From Deltaproteobacteria bacterium (GTDB taxonomy: Bacteria; Bdellovibrionota_F; JAHFAK01): a stretch of 13,635 bases of DNA. Where the stretch lies: positions 1 through 13,635 of the forward strand of contig JAHFAK010000040.1 in assembly GCA_023250585.1 (NCBI GenBank), in the 5' to 3' direction. Both the position numbers and the translations under genes were made by a program. The number at the start of each line of letters is the position of its first letter. Position 1 is the first letter of the stretch. Positions 2,640 to 13,420 of the stretch are shown piece by piece. The notes under the pieces were generated by a model, which made no database searches, was not told the DNA's origin, and was given only the letters and a program-made list of their open reading frames with translations.

Positions 2640-2714
2640 CTCCCCCATTAACTGAGCTGGTACCAAAAAGCCTCATTGAATCTTTCCAGGAAAACTGCTA
2701 GTGTAAATTCTAAG

Positions 2715-3158
2715 ATGAATCTACAACAGTATCAAAAATCTTTAGAAGAAATATTCCAAAGTAATAATGTAGTTTTGGCATATCTCTTTGGATCTTATGC
2801 TACTAAAAAGGCTAATACCCTCAGTGATATTGATATTGCAGTCTTATGTGCCGAAAAAGTCGATACAATGTTGTATACAGAAATACAAATAGAACTCATT
2901 ACAACATGTATTAAGCTTTTTAAGAAAAATGAGGTTGATGTTGTTGTCCTCAATGCAGCAGCACCACTTCTTGCTTTTCAAGTAGTGAAAAATGGGGCTG
3001 TACTCTATGATCCACAAGGTAGACATCTTAATTTCAGAATCAAGACGCTTAATACTTATTACGACACGGAATATCTGCGTAATGTTCAGACCTATTATTT
3101 GAAGCAATGGATTAAACAGCAAAAGTCGAAATGGAAGGAACCGGCAGGGAAATGGTAG
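2715..3158 (+). CDS. mntA: MntA-type nucleotidyltransferase antitoxin
   Basis: This is a minimal MNT-fold nucleotidyltransferase of 147 residues, the usual size for MntA. From the ATG at 2715 it shows the catalytic GSx10DxD signature (G26, S27, D38, D40) in LFGSYATKKANTLSDIDIAVL and the third acidic position in EVDVVVLN (D75). Established knowledge: MntA antitoxins transfer AMP units from ATP to a tyrosine in the partner HEPN toxin HepT, switching off its RNase activity. The gene directly after it is a HepT. The frame extends upstream to a TTG at 2676, but the family starts close to the MNT core, so ATG 2715 is preferred. Neither start has a convincing ribosome binding site. The family call is strong; the exact start is uncertain. 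Confidence 0.88.
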   Translation: MNLQQYQKSLEEIFQSNNVVLAYLFGSYATKKANTLSDIDIAVLCAEKVDTMLYTEIQIELITTCIKLFKKNEVDVVVLNAAAPLLAFQVVKNGAVLYDPQGRHLNFRIKTLNTYYDTEYLRNVQTYYLKQWIKQQKSKWKEPAGKW

Positions 3159-3577
3159 ATAAACCTATTGCATATAAAATTCTTAAGAATCTTCGAAACT
3201 ATATTGAAAATTTACGTCCGCTACAAAATCTATCGAATGAAGAAGTCGTCAGTAGTTTTGTAACCCAAAGTGCAGTTCGCTATGGTTTATTGGTTTCTAT
3301 CCAATGTGTAATTGATGTAGGAAATCATATCCTTTCTGGAATGAATTTTGAAGCGCCAAATACATACGAAGAAGTGATAAAAAATCTTGGAAAGGCACGT
3401 ATTATTCCAACAGAGTTTGCTACTTCAATAAGCAAAATGGCGGGATTTCGAAATCTTTTGGTTCATCATTATGCAGACGTTGATTCAGAAATCGTAGCCG
3501 CTCGGCTAAAAGAAAGACTCGACGATTTTGAGAAGTTTATTGATTATATACAAAAATATTTAGAGTCTGGCTCATAA
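3152..3577 (+). CDS. hepT: HepT-type HEPN ribonuclease toxin (DUF86)
   Basis: This all-helical HEPN protein has 141 residues from the ATG at 3152. It carries the HepT signature Rx4HxY as R100-NLLV-H105-H-Y107, in the setting MAGFRNLLVHHYADVD. In the family the Arg and His form the RNase active site and the Tyr is the residue AMPylated by MntA. Other typical segments are LLVSIQCVIDVGNHIL and the C-terminal LDDFEKFIDYIQKYL helix. The ATG overlaps the mntA stop (ATGGTAG), which points to translational coupling, the normal arrangement for this pair. An in-frame ATG at 3131 would add seven residues, with no better ribosome binding site. All key residues are intact, so the pair is probably functional. 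Confidence 0.9.
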   Translation: MVDKPIAYKILKNLRNYIENLRPLQNLSNEEVVSSFVTQSAVRYGLLVSIQCVIDVGNHILSGMNFEAPNTYEEVIKNLGKARIIPTEFATSISKMAGFRNLLVHHYADVDSEIVAARLKERLDDFEKFIDYIQKYLESGS

Positions 3578-3615: not shown

Positions 3616-4473
3616 CTATTCCTTATACGCTTTCATTAATCCCATCAAAACTTCTTTAGAGTAATCAGCTGGTATTGGCCAAGTACTTTCATCTTTTCTA
3701 TCCCACAATGGATCAACTCCTTCTGACATCATCTGCAGTGAAAGAATCGCATAACTTTTACATGCATTGTAGAGCGGATGTTTTTTCTTTTTGGAAATAT
3801 CAGTGCATATTTTTTGAGCACCTTCAAACGCATATTTTCGAGTGAGAGAATTTTCGTCACGAATTCCAAATTGTAGAAGGAACCAGAGGCTTATAATGGA
3901 TTTTGAACCCATCTCAGCAAATGCCTGGGTGAGTGATTGGAAACCCCCTTGAAGAATAGTATCTTTAAATCTTTTCCTATGTGAGAGCACTTCTTTAACT
4001 ACTAATCGTATGGTTATGTCTGAATCTATAGCTACGAATAAGTAAATAAGGCCGTGAGTGAAACTTGAAGAAAGGTCTTCTAAATCTTGATAAGTAGCAT
4101 GAAATTTATTCATAATACCTTCCAATTCAGATTGAGGAATATCTGATTTTGCAACTGCCCTTGCAATATTTCCCGCAGAATTCCAGTGTAGATATCGAGT
4201 GCCAGTATCGGATGTAGTACTGCTTAAGCTCTCGTAAATTTCTTCAAGAAGTGGAGCAACAATTAGATAATCACCCTTGCGTGTATGTTCTAAGATGTCT
4301 TGAGTAGCATTGATTTGAGTATAATATTCATTTTCATAGTGCCCCAGATTTTTTTTAAAGTTTTTTACAAGTTCTATAAGACGAGGTTCTCCACCTTCAC
4401 GAGCTCTTGCGTAGGATAAAAAACTATTAGATAAGAACAGTAACATTATTAAAGTTTGTACTATTGTTTTCAT
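3616..4473 (-). CDS. Exported helical protein of unknown function
   Basis: A 285-residue protein with a clear Sec signal peptide (MKTIVQTLIMLLFLSNSFLSYARA), likely cleaved near residue 24, so periplasmic or secreted. The start is well supported: AAGGAG lies 5 nt upstream of the ATG. I recognise no family. The mature part looks mainly alpha-helical, with alternating amphipathic stretches (LVKNFKKNLGHYENEYY, LEDLSSSFTHGLIYLFVAI, SLWFLLQFGI), resembling a helical-repeat scaffold, and a basic KKKKH patch about two-thirds along. There is no lipobox, no evident catalytic motif and no other membrane span. It diverges from the TraB-like exported protein and converges on hepT. It is a real gene of unknown function. 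Confidence 0.85.
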   Translation of the reverse strand: MKTIVQTLIMLLFLSNSFLSYARAREGGEPRLIELVKNFKKNLGHYENEYYTQINATQDILEHTRKGDYLIVAPLLEEIYESLSSTTSDTGTRYLHWNSAGNIARAVAKSDIPQSELEGIMNKFHATYQDLEDLSSSFTHGLIYLFVAIDSDITIRLVVKEVLSHRKRFKDTILQGGFQSLTQAFAEMGSKSIISLWFLLQFGIRDENSLTRKYAFEGAQKICTDISKKKKHPLYNACKSYAILSLQMMSEGVDPLWDRKDESTWPIPADYSKEVLMGLMKAYKE

Positions 4474-4719: not shown

Positions 4720-5502
4720 ATGTCTTACAAAAAAATAGTAACTATAATTATTCTCAACTTTTTTATGAGCACTGAAGGCAAAGTTTCCGCTCAATGTGAA
4801 AATATTTTTACAAGATTTTTCACATCGAAAATTGTCGCAGCTATTTTCCCAACGTCTAAAGAAGGATTATGGATCAGTGTAGAACATGCTTTAGACGATG
4901 GAGGTAAGAAAGAATTACAATGGGTTAAAAATAAGATTAGTGAAGAACAGCGTAAAGGGGCTAAAAGTATTGGCCTTGAATTGAGACAGGATTATGAAGA
5001 GCGTATACAAATGGGCATCAAGGTGGCATTCTTTGGCGAACTTTACCGTTTTGCCAAGGAAAATGGAATCAAAATAGTTCTATTAGAAGATCCAATCTTA
5101 TATGAAGAACAGTCCGCATTAGTTACCGCAGTAGAATTTACGAGGACCAATACTTCAATCAAGATGGTTGAGAGATTACTACAATTAAAAAGGCAAGCTC
5201 AGTCAGGATTTATTCCTCCTGAAAAATCTCTTTCTATTCATTTGGATATTCAGTTATTTACCCGAGTTCTAGAGCTGATGAAGCACTATCAAACATTAGA
5301 AAGTCTTCAAGATCTCTATAATCAACTTCAGACGAAACGAGAAGTTCATATGAGAAAAATAATAGATAAAGAAAAACCAGATATCGTTGTTATAGGAACA
5401 ATGCATACTCAAAATATTCGTAAGCAACATAAGCACGGAAAAATAAAAAAATATCGATTAGCTTTTAGTCCAGAAGCTGAAACAATTCCAATACTCAACT
5501 AA
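4720..5502 (+). CDS. Exported protein resembling the TraB/TIKI (erythromycin esterase-like) superfamily
   Basis: A 260-residue protein with an N-terminal signal peptide (MSYKKIVTIIILNFFMSTEGKVSA, cut before QC near residue 25). The mature part shows a pattern like the TraB/TIKI fold: H56 in WISVEH, a helix, then the strand and acidic motif SIGLELR (E87, R89). Further on come KIVLLED (119-124), KREVHMRKII (206-215) and DIVVIGTMH (221-229) with a GxxH ending in H229. Known members include the Wnt-cleaving TIKI metalloproteases and the pheromone regulator TraB/PrgY, where paired GxxH motifs and an E/R pair are the conserved core. Here the first motif is SVEH rather than GxxH, so assignment is tentative. 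The start has only a weak GGGG site 2 nt before ATG. A peptidase role in the periplasm is possible but unproven. Confidence 0.75.
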   Translation: MSYKKIVTIIILNFFMSTEGKVSAQCENIFTRFFTSKIVAAIFPTSKEGLWISVEHALDDGGKKELQWVKNKISEEQRKGAKSIGLELRQDYEERIQMGIKVAFFGELYRFAKENGIKIVLLEDPILYEEQSALVTAVEFTRTNTSIKMVERLLQLKRQAQSGFIPPEKSLSIHLDIQLFTRVLELMKHYQTLESLQDLYNQLQTKREVHMRKIIDKEKPDIVVIGTMHTQNIRKQHKHGKIKKYRLAFSPEAETIPILN

Positions 5503-5669: not shown

Positions 5670-8600
5670 TTATGGTTCGCATACATTACCAATGTTATTA
5701 GAATCATCGTCTGCTTGCTCTGCATTTGATACAAGAGGGCAGTTGTCCGAGTCATTTGAGATTCCATCTCCGTCTTTATCATCATCGCATACATCTCCCT
5801 GTCCATCGGAGTCGATATCAGATTGATCTGGGTTTGCAATAGAATCACAGTTATCAGATGTATCAATTATACCATCTAGATCAGAATCAGTTCCATCACA
5901 TGCATCACCAATACTGTTACTGTCTCCGTCAGCTTGATTGCTATTGGAATAATTAGGGCAGTTGTCTTCAGCATCAGCGATTCCATCTCCGTCTTTATCA
6001 TTGTCACATGCATCTCCCTGTCCATCGGAGTCGATATCAGATTGATCGACATTTGGAACTGCGTCGCAATTATCATAGATGTCAATCCATTGATCGCCAT
6101 CTGTATCAGTTCCATCGCATGCATTACCGATGTCATTAGTATCATCATCAGCTTGATCTGGGTTATAGGCTAGAATACAATTATCAGTATCATCCAAAAT
6201 TCCATCACCATCATCATCGTCATCGCAAGCGTCTCCCTGCCCATCATAATTACTGTCTAGCTGACTTGGGTTATCTATAGAATCACAATTATCATAGATA
6301 TCAATCAATCCATCTAGGTCTGAATCAGTTCCATCACAGACATCTCCGACTCCATTACCATCAGAATCGTCTTGATTTGGATTGTATGCAACACGACAAT
6401 TATCACTATCGTCTAAAATTCCGTCGCCGTCATCATCGGTATCACATGCATCTCCCTGTCCATCGTAGTCAATATCAGATTGATCGACATTTGGAACTGC
6501 ATCGCAGTTATCATAGACATCAATCCATCCATCATTATCAGAATCAGTTCCATCACAAGAATCACCAACTCCATTACTATCAGAATCTTCCTGATTTGGA
6601 TTGTAATATGTCGGGCAATTATCATTTATATCGAGGACTTCATCATTGTCATTATCGCTATCACACGCATCACCCTCTGAATCCCAATCAATATTTGATT
6701 GTTCTGGATTGTCTACGTATTTACAATTGTCATAAATGTCTATCCATCCATCGCCATCCGTATCCTTTCCATCACATATATCGCCCACTCCGTCGCCATC
6801 ACTGTCATCTTGTGCTGGGTTATAAGTCATTGGACAATTGTCATCTATATTTGCAATGTCATCACCATCGGTATCAGTATCACAAGCGTCTCCCGATAGA
6901 TCTGTCCAGTAATCTGTATTAGCTTGATCTGAGTTTGAGTCATTAGGGCAGTTATCGTAAGTATCAAATACACCATCATGATCGCTATCCTGGCACGCAT
7001 CTCCAATACCATCAGCATCTGAATCGATTTGATCTGAATTATACCAATAAATACAGTTATCATTACTATCGAGAACTAAATCTCCGTCACTATCAGATGC
7101 CGCTCCAAACACTACTGAATTTGCATCAGCAGGAGAATAACCCCATTGAATTAACCAGGTGACATAGTAGTTTTCACCGCACGTTGCTACTTTATCTGCG
7201 CAACAATCACCTCTATCGACGCATCCATCATCGCATGCGCATTCGTAACTTGGATTATATCCACCACAAAAATTTCCACCTTCATAGTTACAAGAATGCG
7301 GATCATATATAAACGTTGACTGTGTAAATATTTCTTCATTCGCAGTTTCAAAGCTGGTAGCATCATAGGTACTATAATCAAAGGTAAGATCAATTGAACC
7401 AAATAAATCATCAAAATCAAGATATGCAAAAGTCCCACTTGAACCTGTTTCATCAGCAAAATTTGAAGAATTATCTTCAAACATACTGGCATCAACGGCT
7501 AATTCAATAAATTCTACGAGATTATTTACCAGTTCAAGATCAGCTGATCCATCAGAAGCAACTAAAGAACTCCAGAAATCAGGATCATCGGCTTTTGCTG
7601 CAAAACCACTTCCTAAGGCATCAGTAACGTCTGAATCAAATCCTTCTGGATTATCAAATACACTACTAATAATTCCAGCTACAACAGCTTCAATATTAGG
7701 ATCGTTTACTGCTGCTACAATAGTAGATGGTTCAAAAAGACCTGCAAGGCCTTTTATTACTAAGGATCTGTCATTTGTATTTCCTTCATCTGGAGTCGAA
7801 ACTAACCCTGCAAAGGTAACTAATACTGCAATTGTTTCTTCAGTTGCATACATTTGTGTTAATTCATCTGTTGTACTTCCTATAATAGAAGCTCCAACAA
7901 GCAGTTCTGCTGTTGATTCATCAGTTGTTAAGATCGAATCTATTTCATCGCTACTTGCTAAAACATTCATAAGATCATTGATATCTTGAGCAGAACTTGC
8001 ATTATTAATAACATCGTCAGAAGTAAAATCAGCTAAATTTGTATTATCATCAACTGCACTAGTTATGGCATCTATTGTTGCATCTGATGTAGATTCATCA
8101 GCATTTACAACTATTTCCAAAGCATCAGTTGCCGATGTTCCATCAGAAAGAGCGTCTCCGTTATTTAACTCAGCAATGAGTTCATACATTGTAGCAATAC
8201 TCGAATCAGCGCTATGGCCAGAAAAATCTGTAATATCTTGATCCACTACAGTATTGACTGCGTCGTTCGTAACTTGAACTAAATTGCTAAAATCTGTAAT
8301 AAGAGGGGGATCCGTGTCTGCAGTTAATGGATTAAAGTCGCTGCCTTCAAAGATAAGCATTGTAGCTGTTGTGGCACTATTATCTACTTCAACGTCTAAA
8401 TTTGTAGTTTTTTCGACATTATCCGTAGGTTCAGATATAGTAGCCATTTCAATAACCTCTCCGCCATCAACAGTAGGTGCAGTACATCTTATAAAAAATG
8501 TAGATGCATCTGAATCATTTGAGTCAGCTAAAGTTGCTATTTCTGGAGCAAATATAATTGTTCCTGCTTCATCTGTTTCTCCCGTATCTATGACTGAAAA

Positions 8601-8882
8601 ACTTGAATCAAGGAGATCACAGGGAACCCCTGAAGCAGCCTGATCAGTCGATAGTTTCAAAGCATGTTTTGTAGTTTTTAAATACGCAGGTACTGCATTG
8701 GGGAGTGCGTTTGGAAGCGCACTAGCCACGTTCGATGGCACTTGAAAAGCAGCGGTAATTTGAAAAGTACTGGGATTGGTGTCTTTACTCTCTCCACCAC
8801 CACCGCATCCACTACAACTTGAAATAAGAGCGAATACACCAATGGACAAAAGATAAAAATAATTCAATTTTTTTACTTGCAT
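5670..8882 (-). CDS. Outer-membrane lipoprotein with somatomedin-B-like domain and 13 thrombospondin type 3 repeats
   Basis: A 1070-residue lipoprotein. The signal peptide ends in the lipobox ISSC (Cys23), followed by Ser and a glycine run that would act as a tether; a +2 Ser favours outer-membrane sorting. Residues about 35-160 contain a possible beta domain with two Cys (GVPC, FIRC). About 170-450 is acidic and rich in Ala, Ser and Thr, apparently helical, with no known family. Residues 531-568 have eight Cys spaced C-x7-C-x8-C-x-C-x3-C-x5-CC-x6-C (ECACDDGC, RGDCC), very like a somatomedin-B domain. From about 597 to the end there are 13 TSP3 units (DxDxDGxxDxxDNC), which bind calcium in this family. 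The protein ends directly after the last repeat. AGGAG lies 7 nt upstream of the ATG. It is probably a long, calcium-rigidified surface protein; the partner is unknown. Confidence 0.92.
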   Translation of the reverse strand: MQVKKLNYFYLLSIGVFALISSCSGCGGGGESKDTNPSTFQITAAFQVPSNVASALPNALPNAVPAYLKTTKHALKLSTDQAASGVPCDLLDSSFSVIDTGETDEAGTIIFAPEIATLADSNDSDASTFFIRCTAPTVDGGEVIEMATISEPTDNVEKTTNLDVEVDNSATTATMLIFEGSDFNPLTADTDPPLITDFSNLVQVTNDAVNTVVDQDITDFSGHSADSSIATMYELIAELNNGDALSDGTSATDALEIVVNADESTSDATIDAITSAVDDNTNLADFTSDDVINNASSAQDINDLMNVLASSDEIDSILTTDESTAELLVGASIIGSTTDELTQMYATEETIAVLVTFAGLVSTPDEGNTNDRSLVIKGLAGLFEPSTIVAAVNDPNIEAVVAGIISSVFDNPEGFDSDVTDALGSGFAAKADDPDFWSSLVASDGSADLELVNNLVEFIELAVDASMFEDNSSNFADETGSSGTFAYLDFDDLFGSIDLTFDYSTYDATSFETANEEIFTQSTFIYDPHSCNYEGGNFCGGYNPSYECACDDGCVDRGDCCADKVATCGENYYVTWLIQWGYSPADANSVVFGAASDSDGDLVLDSNDNCIYWYNSDQIDSDADGIGDACQDSDHDGVFDTYDNCPNDSNSDQANTDYWTDLSGDACDTDTDGDDIANIDDNCPMTYNPAQDDSDGDGVGDICDGKDTDGDGWIDIYDNCKYVDNPEQSNIDWDSEGDACDSDNDNDEVLDINDNCPTYYNPNQEDSDSNGVGDSCDGTDSDNDGWIDVYDNCDAVPNVDQSDIDYDGQGDACDTDDDGDGILDDSDNCRVAYNPNQDDSDGNGVGDVCDGTDSDLDGLIDIYDNCDSIDNPSQLDSNYDGQGDACDDDDDGDGILDDTDNCILAYNPDQADDDTNDIGNACDGTDTDGDQWIDIYDNCDAVPNVDQSDIDSDGQGDACDNDKDGDGIADAEDNCPNYSNSNQADGDSNSIGDACDGTDSDLDGIIDTSDNCDSIANPDQSDIDSDGQGDVCDDDKDGDGISNDSDNCPLVSNAEQADDDSNNIGNVCEP
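5680..7100 (-). repeat. Coding tandem repeat with a 219 bp period (TSP3 pairs)
   Basis: The DNA encoding the TSP3 region repeats every 219 bp (73 codons): equivalent CTCCCTG(T/C)CCATC segments occur at about 5792, 6011, 6230 and 6449. Each period holds two alternating 36-37 residue units, one ending GQGDACD and one ending GxGDxCDG. Thirteen DNC motifs are present, so the array reads as one half unit plus six pairs. The outer units towards the somatomedin-like domain are more diverged. Confidence 0.85.
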
Positions 8883-9102: not shown

Positions 9103-9582
9103 ATGGGTGTTGAGTTAGTCGGTCAGGCTTGTGAAGTTCTCAATGAAAAGCCGTTAGTTATAAAAAATGTAAAAGATTATTTTCATATTCATTCCTATGG
9201 TGGACTTTCGAAATTTTTTATAAGTTTGAGAGAATCAAAACTATTAGGAACGCGGTGTACAAATAAGGCATGTAAGGAAAAGGGAATTTGGCTGCCGCCG
9301 CGAATATATTGTCCTGATTGCCTCCAGCAGATGGAATGGGTAGAGGCACCGCAGGTAGGAGAAATTTATACTCATACGACTGTTGAATATCCGGGGAGTA
9401 ATTTTAAATTATCAACTCCATGTCCTTTGATTTCCGTTTCTTTGCCTGGCGTTTGCACAAAAATGATGTCATATCTCAAAGAAGGCAAACCAAAAATCGG
9501 GATGAAAGTTAAAGCATGGTTTCGAACCGATAAGCCAACGAATACTATACTCGATCTCGCATGGGTTCCCCTCGACAAATGA
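9103..9582 (+). CDS. DUF35 zinc-ribbon/OB-fold acyl-CoA-binding partner protein
   Basis: A 159-residue DUF35 protein. A short helical N-terminus (KDYFHIHSYGGLSKFFISLRESKLLGTRC) leads into a zinc ribbon with C52-x4-C57 and C70-PD-C73, then an OB-fold (GEIYTHTTVEYPG, TPCPLISVSLPG, GMKVKAWFRTDK). The family forms complexes with SCP2-type thiolases, archaeal acetoacetyl-CoA thiolase/HMG-CoA synthase and steroid-degrading Ltp2 aldolases, helping bind or channel the CoA ester. It is the first gene of a three-gene operon with a strong GGAGG site 6 nt before ATG. Its stop overlaps the start of the ligase gene. The usual thiolase partner is not adjacent; the candidate is at 997. Confidence 0.92.
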   Translation: MGVELVGQACEVLNEKPLVIKNVKDYFHIHSYGGLSKFFISLRESKLLGTRCTNKACKEKGIWLPPRIYCPDCLQQMEWVEAPQVGEIYTHTTVEYPGSNFKLSTPCPLISVSLPGVCTKMMSYLKEGKPKIGMKVKAWFRTDKPTNTILDLAWVPLDK

Positions 9583-11402
9583 GTCAACACGTATCGGCAG
9601 ACTGGATTCCAACGAAAGAAGTTATCGCACAGAGTAATCTGGACTATTTAATGAATAAATGCAGAATCCAGAATTTTAAAGAACTCCATTCATGGTCAGT
9701 CAAAAACTTTGAGGCATTTTGGGAGTGTTCAATCGAACGCTTAGGCATCGTTTTTCAAGAACCCTATAGAAAAATCTGTAATCTCGAAAAAGGAATTGAA
9801 AAAGCCGAATGGCTTCCCGGCGCTCGCTTTAATATCGTCGATAGCTGCTTCAAAAAAGAAAATTATGATTCGCTCGCTATTATTGAATCATTCAAAGGCG
9901 AGAGGATCACGTTTACCTATGAAGCATTAGAAACATACGTCAATCGTTTTGCGCAAGGACTTGTCCGACATGGTTTAAAAAAAGGAGATGCCATTGCCAT
10001 TTGTATGCCCATGACATGGCAGGCGGTTGTTGCCTACTTGGGAATTATTAAAGTAGGAGGAGTTGTTGTTTCTATTGCTGATAGCTTTTCGCCTGAAGAA
10101 ATAAACGTTCGATTTGAAATGACACAGCCCAAAGCCGTACTTACCATGGATTATGTATATCGAGGTGAAAAAACGTATCCCCTGTATGCAAAATTACAGA
10201 AGACATCTATCTCTCGCATACTTCTTATCAAAACAGATGGGAAAACAAAACTTCGGCCGCAAGATCTTGAGTGGAATCATCTGCTCAGCGGCTATTCAAG
10301 TGTGACTTCATATACGGCAACTTCGGATTATATGATCAATATACTTTTTTCTTCAGGTACCACTGGAGAACCAAAGGCAATTCCGTGGACTCATGCAACA
10401 CCAATAAAATGTGCGACTGATGCTCATTGGCATCATGATGTTCATCCAGGCGATCGATTTACGTGGCCAACTAATCTCGGATGGATGATGGGACCATGGC
10501 TTATTTTTGCAACGCTGATTAACAAAGCAACGATGACGTTGTATAGCGATATTCCAACTGACAAAAAATTTGGTGAATTTATTCAGCATGAAAAAGTTAC
10601 GCATCTCGGTCTTGTTCCAAGCCTTGTACAATCATGGCGAACAAGTAAATGCATGGAAGATCTCAATTGGAAAAATATAAAATTATTTAGTTCTACCGGT
10701 GAATGCTCAAATGCATCGGATATGACATATCTCATGTCATTAGCGGGAAATAAGCCTATAATTGAATATTGTGGCGGAACTGAAATTGGGGGTGGGTATA
10801 TCACAAGTACCGTCATTGAACCAAATATCGCTGCTGCATTTTCGACACCGGCTCTGGGGCTTGATTTTGATATATGTGATGAAGAGGGTAAACCTACAAC
10901 CAATGGAGAAGTTTTTATAAAAATACCATCTCTTGGTTTGTCACAAAAATTACTCAATCGTGATCATCATGAAGTTTATTTCGCAGGAACTCCAGCTCCA
11001 CATCTGCGGCGACATGGAGATCAAATCGAAAAACTTCCCAATGGGTATTTCCGTGTGCTTGGTCGTGTTGATGATACCATGAATCTTGGCGGAATAAAAG
11101 TAAGCTCAGCAGAAATTGAACGAGCGTGTAGTGGTATTGAAGAAATTAAAGACATCGCTGCAATTGCTGTAACTCCAAATAATGGAGGTCCGAGTGAATT
11201 GATCTTGTATATTGTTTTGAACAATGAAAAAAGTGCTGATCAAGAATTTTTATTGAAGAAAATCAAAGAAGCCATTAAGAAAAACTTAAATCCACTTTTT
11301 AAAGTATCTGATTTAGTAATAATTGATACATTACCAAGAACTGCATCGAATAAAGTTATGAGACGTGAATTACGAAAGAAATACATAAAGCAAAGGAGTT
11401 AA
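9579..11402 (+). CDS. Acetyl/acetoacetyl-CoA synthetase-like AMP-forming acyl-CoA ligase
   Basis: A 607-residue ANL-superfamily ligase that activates a carboxylate with ATP and CoA through an acyl-adenylate. The N-terminal part (FEAFWECSIERLGIVFQ, EWLPGARFNIVDSCF) is typical of the acetyl/acetoacetyl-CoA synthetase branch. Core motifs are SSGTTGEPK (258-266, ATP loop), EYCGGTE (396-402), GRVDDTMNLGG (495-505, hinge) and LPRTASNKVMRRELR (585-599), where K592 is the adenylation lysine. Acetate-specific enzymes have WWQTE where this has CGGTE; loss of the pocket Trp predicts a larger acyl substrate. The start is taken as the ATG at 9579, overlapping the DUF35 stop (ATGA), which implies translational coupling. 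An in-frame ATG at 9561 would add six residues. The substrate cannot be read from sequence. Confidence 0.93.
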   Translation: MSQHVSADWIPTKEVIAQSNLDYLMNKCRIQNFKELHSWSVKNFEAFWECSIERLGIVFQEPYRKICNLEKGIEKAEWLPGARFNIVDSCFKKENYDSLAIIESFKGERITFTYEALETYVNRFAQGLVRHGLKKGDAIAICMPMTWQAVVAYLGIIKVGGVVVSIADSFSPEEINVRFEMTQPKAVLTMDYVYRGEKTYPLYAKLQKTSISRILLIKTDGKTKLRPQDLEWNHLLSGYSSVTSYTATSDYMINILFSSGTTGEPKAIPWTHATPIKCATDAHWHHDVHPGDRFTWPTNLGWMMGPWLIFATLINKATMTLYSDIPTDKKFGEFIQHEKVTHLGLVPSLVQSWRTSKCMEDLNWKNIKLFSSTGECSNASDMTYLMSLAGNKPIIEYCGGTEIGGGYITSTVIEPNIAAAFSTPALGLDFDICDEEGKPTTNGEVFIKIPSLGLSQKLLNRDHHEVYFAGTPAPHLRRHGDQIEKLPNGYFRVLGRVDDTMNLGGIKVSSAEIERACSGIEEIKDIAAIAVTPNNGGPSELILYIVLNNEKSADQEFLLKKIKEAIKKNLNPLFKVSDLVIIDTLPRTASNKVMRRELRKKYIKQRS

Positions 11403-11404
11403 GT

Positions 11405-13420
11405 ATGGATTGGACACGTATGATTTCAAAAATTAAAGGTCTCTCGGAAAAAGATCGAGAAATGATTCAAGAAGCTGATGCAATGATGGGCCCAGATCCA
11501 AAAGAGATGGGAGCAGTAAAGAATCTTTTTTGGGGGCATGTTCGCGAAGATTTGATGTTTCCATATCCTGAGTTAAGTGAAACGGAAAAAAAGAAAAATA
11601 AACCTTTAATAGAACGACTTGAATCATATTTGAAGAATGAGCATCCAAGCGTACAAATTGATCAAGAAGAAGAAACTCCCGAATGGGTTTTAAAACGTCT
11701 CTTTGAAATGGGCGTTATGGGCATGACGATCGGTAAGGAATATGGCGGGCTTGAATTAGGAGTCACGAGTTACAATCAGGTTTTACAACGAATAGGTGCC
11801 AAATGCGCATCGACATCAGTTATTGTTTCCGCACATCAATCAATTGGCTGTAAAGCGCTCATGCTCTATGGAACCGAAGCACAAAAGAAAAAATATTTGC
11901 CGAAGCTTGCAAAAGAAAGTCTTTCAGCATTCTGTCTTTCTGAACCGAATGTCGGGTCGGATGCTGGTGGCCAAGAGACAACATATACAGAATCACTTGA
12001 TGGAAAATATTATATTTTGAATGGAGAAAAGAAATGGGCGACATCGGGCGCTCTTGCTGCCATGTTTACCGTCATCGCACGAAAGCATGATCCTAAGAGT
12101 ACTAAAAAAACAATTTCAGCTTTTATTTGTACGCCAGAAATAGAAGGCGTTGAGATATTTGAACGCAACCGAAGTAAATGCGGTATTCGTGGAACATGGC
12201 AAGCGAGGATTCGTTTTACTAATGTGAAAATTCCAAAAGAAAATGTAGTTCTCGGCGAAGGGAAGGGATTGCATATTGCTCTTGGGTGTTTGAATTATGG
12301 AAGATGTACGCTCTCAGCAGGAGTGCTGGGCAATGCACTCACTTCTCGTGATCAGGCTATTAAATGGGCACAAACGAGATTTCAATTTGGAAGGCCTTTG
12401 TCTGATTTTCAACTAATTCAAGAAAAAATTGCGCGCATGTCAGCATTGACGTACGCTATGGATGCGATGCTGTACATGACGACTGGAATGCTTGATCGTA
12501 AAGATACCGACATCATGGTTGAAACAGCGACGTGTAAGGTTTTTTGTTCAGAGATGGGTTGGCGTGTAATTAATGATGCGGTCCAAATTATGGGTGGCGA
12601 TGGGTACATGACTGAAAATGAATTAGAACGTGGATTTCGTGATAGCCGCATTTACTTGATCGTTGAAGGTGCAAATGAAGTTATGCAGACATTTATTTTT
12701 GCATATGGCGGAAAACAGCTTTTTGAATATCTCTTAGCATTCACCTGGGATCCTGAGCAGGGTATTGGCGAGAATATGGTAAACCTTCTTAAACGGCTGA
12801 CGAATAGAAAAGTTTTAAAACAAGGAATTGCTTTTCTTGCAGAAGTATTTTTGAAGATAAAACCAAAAGCGCCTGAACTCACGAAACTCCATTTATCGCT
12901 ATCTGATTACTCGAAACGTTTTAGTTCCCTTGTCGGGGAGCACAGCTATCATTTCAAAAAAATGATTATCAAACATCGTGAATCATTGATAACAAAACAA
13001 GTTGTGCAAGCGCGGATTGCTGATGTGGCTATGTGGCTTCATGCATATATGTGTACATTGTCGAAATTGGATATGCAACTCCGTAAAGAAGAGAGCGGCA
13101 GTGCCTTTGAACGAGACAAAGCAGCCGCATTACACTTTTTTGATCTTGCGGAACGAGAGATTAGAACTCGTTTTGATAGCTTGTATCACAATGCCGATAA
13201 GACACTCGACGCAGCAGCAAAAAAGACGATGCTCTACACTGACACGTTACCCAATAGTGATTTTATTATTCATCAAAAATCTCCAAATGCCCAAGGCTCA
13301 GGCCGCAAGCCTATACGAGAATTTGTGAAACAGTTTGTGGGTACAAAAGAAAATCTAACTGTCAAAGTTCAAACAAATCGAGACAAAGAAGATAACGAAC
13401 AACATAAGCCGCTGCAGTAG
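11405..13420 (+). CDS. Long acyl-CoA dehydrogenase with C-terminal extension (VLCAD/ACAD9-like architecture)
   Basis: A 671-residue FAD-dependent acyl-CoA dehydrogenase that would form a 2,3-enoyl-CoA. Visible motifs are AFCLSEPNVGSDA (175-187) and KKWATSG (209-215) for FAD and substrate, QFGRPLSDFQ (327-336), QIMGGDGYMTE (394-404) and RIYLIVEGANEV (415-426), where E421 aligns with the catalytic base of the MCAD/VLCAD group. The usual catalytic core ends near residue 440. The remaining 230 residues are mostly helical, basic and similar in layout to the C-terminal domain of VLCAD/ACAD9, which mediates dimer and membrane contacts. An N-terminal extension of about 50 residues is also present. 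AAGGAG lies 7 nt before the ATG, and only 2 nt separate it from the ligase stop. The last 30 residues are polar and probably disordered. Confidence 0.93.
   Translation: MDWTRMISKIKGLSEKDREMIQEADAMMGPDPKEMGAVKNLFWGHVREDLMFPYPELSETEKKKNKPLIERLESYLKNEHPSVQIDQEEETPEWVLKRLFEMGVMGMTIGKEYGGLELGVTSYNQVLQRIGAKCASTSVIVSAHQSIGCKALMLYGTEAQKKKYLPKLAKESLSAFCLSEPNVGSDAGGQETTYTESLDGKYYILNGEKKWATSGALAAMFTVIARKHDPKSTKKTISAFICTPEIEGVEIFERNRSKCGIRGTWQARIRFTNVKIPKENVVLGEGKGLHIALGCLNYGRCTLSAGVLGNALTSRDQAIKWAQTRFQFGRPLSDFQLIQEKIARMSALTYAMDAMLYMTTGMLDRKDTDIMVETATCKVFCSEMGWRVINDAVQIMGGDGYMTENELERGFRDSRIYLIVEGANEVMQTFIFAYGGKQLFEYLLAFTWDPEQGIGENMVNLLKRLTNRKVLKQGIAFLAEVFLKIKPKAPELTKLHLSLSDYSKRFSSLVGEHSYHFKKMIIKHRESLITKQVVQARIADVAMWLHAYMCTLSKLDMQLRKEESGSAFERDKAAALHFFDLAEREIRTRFDSLYHNADKTLDAAAKKTMLYTDTLPNSDFIIHQKSPNAQGSGRKPIREFVKQFVGTKENLTVKVQTNRDKEDNEQHKPLQ

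Follow-up and report, generated by a model that had tools for sequence, protein, structure and literature searches.

A predicted bacterial lipoprotein joins a somatomedin-B domain to an array of TSP3 repeats

Somatomedin-B (SMB) domains, Pfam family PF01033, are familiar chiefly from proteins of animal blood and matrix, and occur in vitronectin, in ENPP1-3/autotaxin and in animal EndoU. The SMB domains of vitronectin and of the ENPPs mediate protein contacts, and that of vitronectin binds PAI-1 and uPAR through known contact residues. In bacteria, lipoproteins are recognized by the established lipobox rule. A second point of comparison is provided by Myxococcus MtsC and TSP3-repeat proteins, and calcium binding is given as shown for bacterial TSP3 repeats where Dai et al. 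2017 are cited in PMC12045341. Here, we describe an ORF of a Deltaproteobacteria bacterium (assembly GCA_023250585.1, contig JAHFAK010000040.1) that lies in a window of 13,635 nucleotides, that is, the whole stretch of DNA that was analysed. With the PF01033 proteins, its SMB domain has in common the register of eight Cys, the CxCD and GDCC motifs and the predicted fold, while the protein as a whole shares its TSP3 array with Myxococcus MtsC and TSP3-repeat proteins.

The layout of the ORF is given in Table 1. The initial annotation had read it as a bacterial lipoprotein with TSP3 repeats, and both a lipobox and such repeats are present. The N-terminus, MQVKKLNYFYLLSIGVFALISSC, has a signal peptide in which the lipobox ISS precedes C23, and MQVKKLNYFYLLSIGVFALISS followed by C23 agrees, by eye, with the lipobox pattern [LVI][ASTVI][GAS]C. 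From about residue 596 to the C-terminus, Pfam TSP_3 (PF02412) matched in 13 stretches with 283.5 bits, above the cut-off, and the array holds 13 DNC motifs. The N-terminal region (residues 24-526) had neither a Pfam family match nor a homologue across 97 other genomes, and its single-sequence model was uninterpretable (pLDDT 37). Likewise, a search of 97 other genomes returned no ortholog of the whole 1070-aa protein.

Table 1. Features of the predicted SMB-TSP3 lipoprotein ORF, with positions in the window
Feature	Position	Strand	Basis
Predicted lipoprotein ORF, 1070 aa	5670..8882	-	Translated ORF, comprising the five features below
Signal peptide with lipobox I-S-S-C, residues 1-23	8814..8882	-	Read by eye; Cys23 is the predicted lipidation site
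N-terminal region, residues 24-526	7305..8813	-	Family and homologue searches, single-sequence model
SMB domain, residues 527-570, eight Cys at 531-568	7173..7304	-	Profiles, Cys register, predicted fold
Linker, residues 571-595, NYYVTWLIQWGYSPADANSVVFGAA	7098..7172	-	Sequence
TSP3 array, 13 repeats, Asp-rich calcium-binding motifs and DNC Cys	5673..7097	-	Pfam TSP_3, DNC motifs

In the translated ORF, Cys residues are found at positions 531, 539, 548, 550, 554, 560, 561, and 568 (window 7292-7179, minus strand), in agreement with the eight Cys at residues 531-568 first reported within 6990-7320. The full spacing is C-x7-C-x8-C-x-C-x3-C-x5-CC-x6-C; from the third Cys on, it is identical to the SMB spacing noted before (C-x-C-x3-C-x5-CC-x6-C), and the DCC motif is present as GDCC. 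Against PF01033, whose gathering score is 23.1 bits, the whole protein scored 17.1 bits (E 0.0069) and the domain alone 22.4 bits (E 1.5e-4). The HMM search proposed in the initial annotation thus yielded a match, but one just below the gathering score. This slight shortfall, and the fact that animal SMBs have a shorter C1-C2 loop, might point to an unrelated Cys-rich domain imitating the SMB spacing by convergence or chance. With the single domain sequence as query, the top matches in the PDB were the SMB domains of ENPP3 (E 0.006).

A scan of genome contigs with the DNA motif C-x-C-D-x2-C-x4-D-C-C-x6-C returned at least 112 stretches, and the majority of those listed fall within long open frames. 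Two extra Cys were present within 25 residues upstream in 147/147 retained domains, although the pattern had not required them. The window domain and 51 of the retained prokaryotic domains were assembled into an alignment, of which 51 of the 52 members matched PF01033. The Cys columns are invariant, C3-C8 being imposed by the search pattern and C1 and C2 being free. Run against the PDB, the profile of this alignment matched 43 distinct sequences, all 43 SMB-bearing (EndoU, ENPP1-3, autotaxin, vitronectin, and SUSD2), with E-values of 4e-13 for EndoU, 2.5e-10 for ENPP1, and 4.5e-7 for vitronectin. A leave-one-out profile, built from the 51 other prokaryotic SMBs with the window sequence excluded, scored the window domain at 41.6 bits. 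With the same profile, no further ORF in the window scored above 9.0 bits, the value of the best one; full shuffles of the window domain reached 9.4 bits at most (n = 3000), and shuffles in which the Cys were kept fixed 31.5 bits at most (n = 1000).

Structure prediction, which the initial annotation had also suggested, gave an AF2 model of the domain with a pLDDT of 80. The model superposed on the vitronectin SMB (1oc0_B) with a Z of 4.5 and an rmsd of 1.4 Å over 36 of 37 residues, indicating an SMB fold in a predicted, not a solved, structure. SMB proteins made up 50/50 of the matches listed by Foldseek/VIA, with E-values that were weak (best 0.1) because the domain is small (54-residue query). 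As to the longer C1-C2 loop, 16 of 147 other prokaryotic domains have one of 5-8 residues, and five have exactly 7. We rejected chance or convergence as the source of the pattern, since the 41.6 bits exceeded every shuffle, including those with fixed Cys, and consider such an origin very improbable, given also that the profile found only SMB proteins in the PDB and that the predicted fold superposes on vitronectin. The SMB-like identity first proposed therefore stands: the window domain is a true, slightly divergent homologue of the animal SMB fold, as established by the profiles and the predicted fold. From the fold and the Cys register, the disulfide pairing is expected to be C1-C4, C2-C8, C3-C7, and C5-C6.

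Compared with animal SMBs, the window domain stands out by its C1-C2 loop of 7 residues, its lipoprotein context and its single copy beside TSP3. The C1-C2 spacing of the vitronectin SMB is x3, versus x7 here, and the residue after CCxD, a Lys in the window domain, is usually aromatic in animal SMBs. Except for the Asp of CxCD, the PAI-1 and uPAR contact residues of vitronectin are replaced and, because they are not kept, vitronectin-type partners are not predicted. Some Myxococcota SMBs (for example, those of L061, L106, L123, and L126) resemble the window domain in their similar longer C1-C2 loop, in CGG after C2 and in CWCDxxC...GDCC. Their ORFs mostly start with lipobox-like N-termini, as the window ORF does, but, unlike it, are devoid of TSP3 repeats.

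The initial annotation had implied that such a domain would be an animal oddity in a bacterium. This was not borne out, as many Myxococcota have SMB domains, which also occur in several further groups of bacteria and among DPANN archaea. Of the 188 genomes sampled from the phylum of L061, Myxococcota as judged by locus titles, 42 had SMBs that scored above the Pfam cut-off, with up to 30 per genome. SMBs were also found in 6/193 genomes of the archaeal phylum to which L125, a Woesearchaeota locus, belongs and in 2/100 of the phylum of TMED161. Motif matches were, by title, also listed in Aenigmatarchaeota (L135), Candidatus Ainarchaeum (L072), Neomarinimicrobiota, Cryomorphaceae and Fluviicola, as well as in Thermodesulfovibrionia, Phycisphaerales, and Hydrogenedentota. 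DPANN MAGs with SMB domains are L072, L115, L125, and L135 (Ainarchaeum, Woesearchaeota, and Aenigmatarchaeota). Since the genomes are mostly MAGs, single SMB cases may be binning errors. Planctomycetota gave 0/199 at E 1e-5, yet this zero does not mean absence, because motif matches with extra Cys exist there. In viral contigs, the motif scan returned mostly low-complexity or Cys-rich noise and the protein scan no relative, and plasmids gave no match. The host genome has one SMB, and the one other genome searched from its phylum had none.

Being frequent in Myxococcota and found in other prokaryotes, the domain itself is not exotic in prokaryotes. Its commonness in Myxococcota and its reach into archaea bear on where the SMBs of vitronectin and of the ENPPs originated. 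In the open-access literature searched, we found no description of prokaryotic SMBs, and no priority is claimed. A wider, rather doubtful proposal would be that SMB is not an animal innovation but a disulfide module that prokaryotes use generally outside the cell, and that the window protein is a matrix-like adhesin, combining SMB with TSP3, that was invented separately in a bacterial phylum with sparse sampling.

Prokaryotic SMB ORFs are largely Cys-rich and often look exported. Elsewhere, the companions of the domain include peptidases (S8, M4, M57, and M12B), transglutaminase, peptidyl-arginine deiminase, and FG-GAP, Kazal, and EGF modules. Two or more SMB copies were present in 33/86 ORFs, and the domain lay at the very C-terminus in 42 of 77; a loose regex found a lipobox in 52/83, some of these certainly being false. 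Such contexts are in keeping with an accessory module of general use outside the cell. In the survey of bacterial SMB and TSP3 combinations that the initial annotation had called for, the window ORF was the only one of about 105 SMB ORFs to carry a TSP3 array as well; because many of the compared ORFs are cut by locus ends, rarity of the fusion is indicated but not proven. The SMB family thereby gains a TSP3-linked architecture. As for the extracellular-matrix-like architecture claimed initially, the joining of SMB and TSP3 is real, and the likeness to a matrix is an analogy only. In a deltaproteobacterial MAG (L085, 997-3825 and 4093-6498, plus strand), an ORF with TSP3 immediately precedes one with an SMB, the two modules being neighbours but unfused. 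TSP3 proteins are expanded in the host genome (2.2 Mb), with 134 TSP3 matches spread across about two dozen frames.

We infer a surface location, calcium stiffening, and a spacer or interaction role of the SMB. The ORF product would be exported as a lipoprotein, with an ectodomain in which the N-terminal region is followed by one SMB disulfide knot and, after a short linker, by a 13-repeat, calcium-binding TSP3 rod. The SMB probably belongs to a prokaryotic population of small accessory modules of secreted proteins. It would act as a disulfide-locked spacer or hinge joining the N-terminal region to the calcium-stiffened rod, and it may present a protein-interaction surface. The protein is thus probably an exported SMB-TSP3 lipoprotein in which the SMB forms a rigid, protease-resistant knob or hinge and an interaction surface at the base of the TSP3 rod. 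A possible, if less favoured, alternative is that the SMB is a passive disulfide cap, ending the N-terminal region and starting the rod without any ligand. Prokaryotic SMBs do resemble interchangeable small modules, often C-terminal or in tandem and beside unrelated enzymes, but the sequence by itself does not tell a cap from an interaction module.

Alternatively, the SMB might be a specific adhesion module for a protein on neighbouring cells, substrate or host, with the TSP3 rod as its stalk. The window protein passed the cut-off of the NCBIfam "cell-cell cohesion" model MtsC (NF047638; 373.6 versus 350), though through its TSP3 repeats, the best stretch being residues 669-850, and the SMBs of vitronectin and ENPPs do make protein contacts. 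However, besides the loss of the vitronectin contact residues, the N-terminal anchor puts the SMB closer to the membrane than the rod, and the protein lacks the MYXO-CTERM that the MtsC model names: the C-terminus, ...DDDSNNIGNVCEP (...NNIGNVCEP), has no hydrophobic or Arg-rich tail. We consider this adhesion role unlikely. The window protein was also rejected as an MtsC, from which it differs by its SMB, its N-terminal lipobox anchor, and its lack of MYXO-CTERM.

The predicted SMB-TSP3 lipoprotein gene is flanked on the plus strand by genes (997-2355 and 9103-13420) for a thiolase, a ChsH2-type OB-fold protein, an acetoacetyl-CoA-synthetase-like ligase, and an acyl-CoA dehydrogenase, which probably serve acyl-CoA catabolism. 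Two exported-looking ORFs without a Pfam family lie at 3616-4473 (minus strand) and 4720-5502 (plus strand). At 2676-3577 (plus strand), a Polbeta/MNT nucleotidyltransferase (160 aa) adjoins a HepT-like ORF (148 aa), a typical HEPN/MNT toxin-antitoxin pair.
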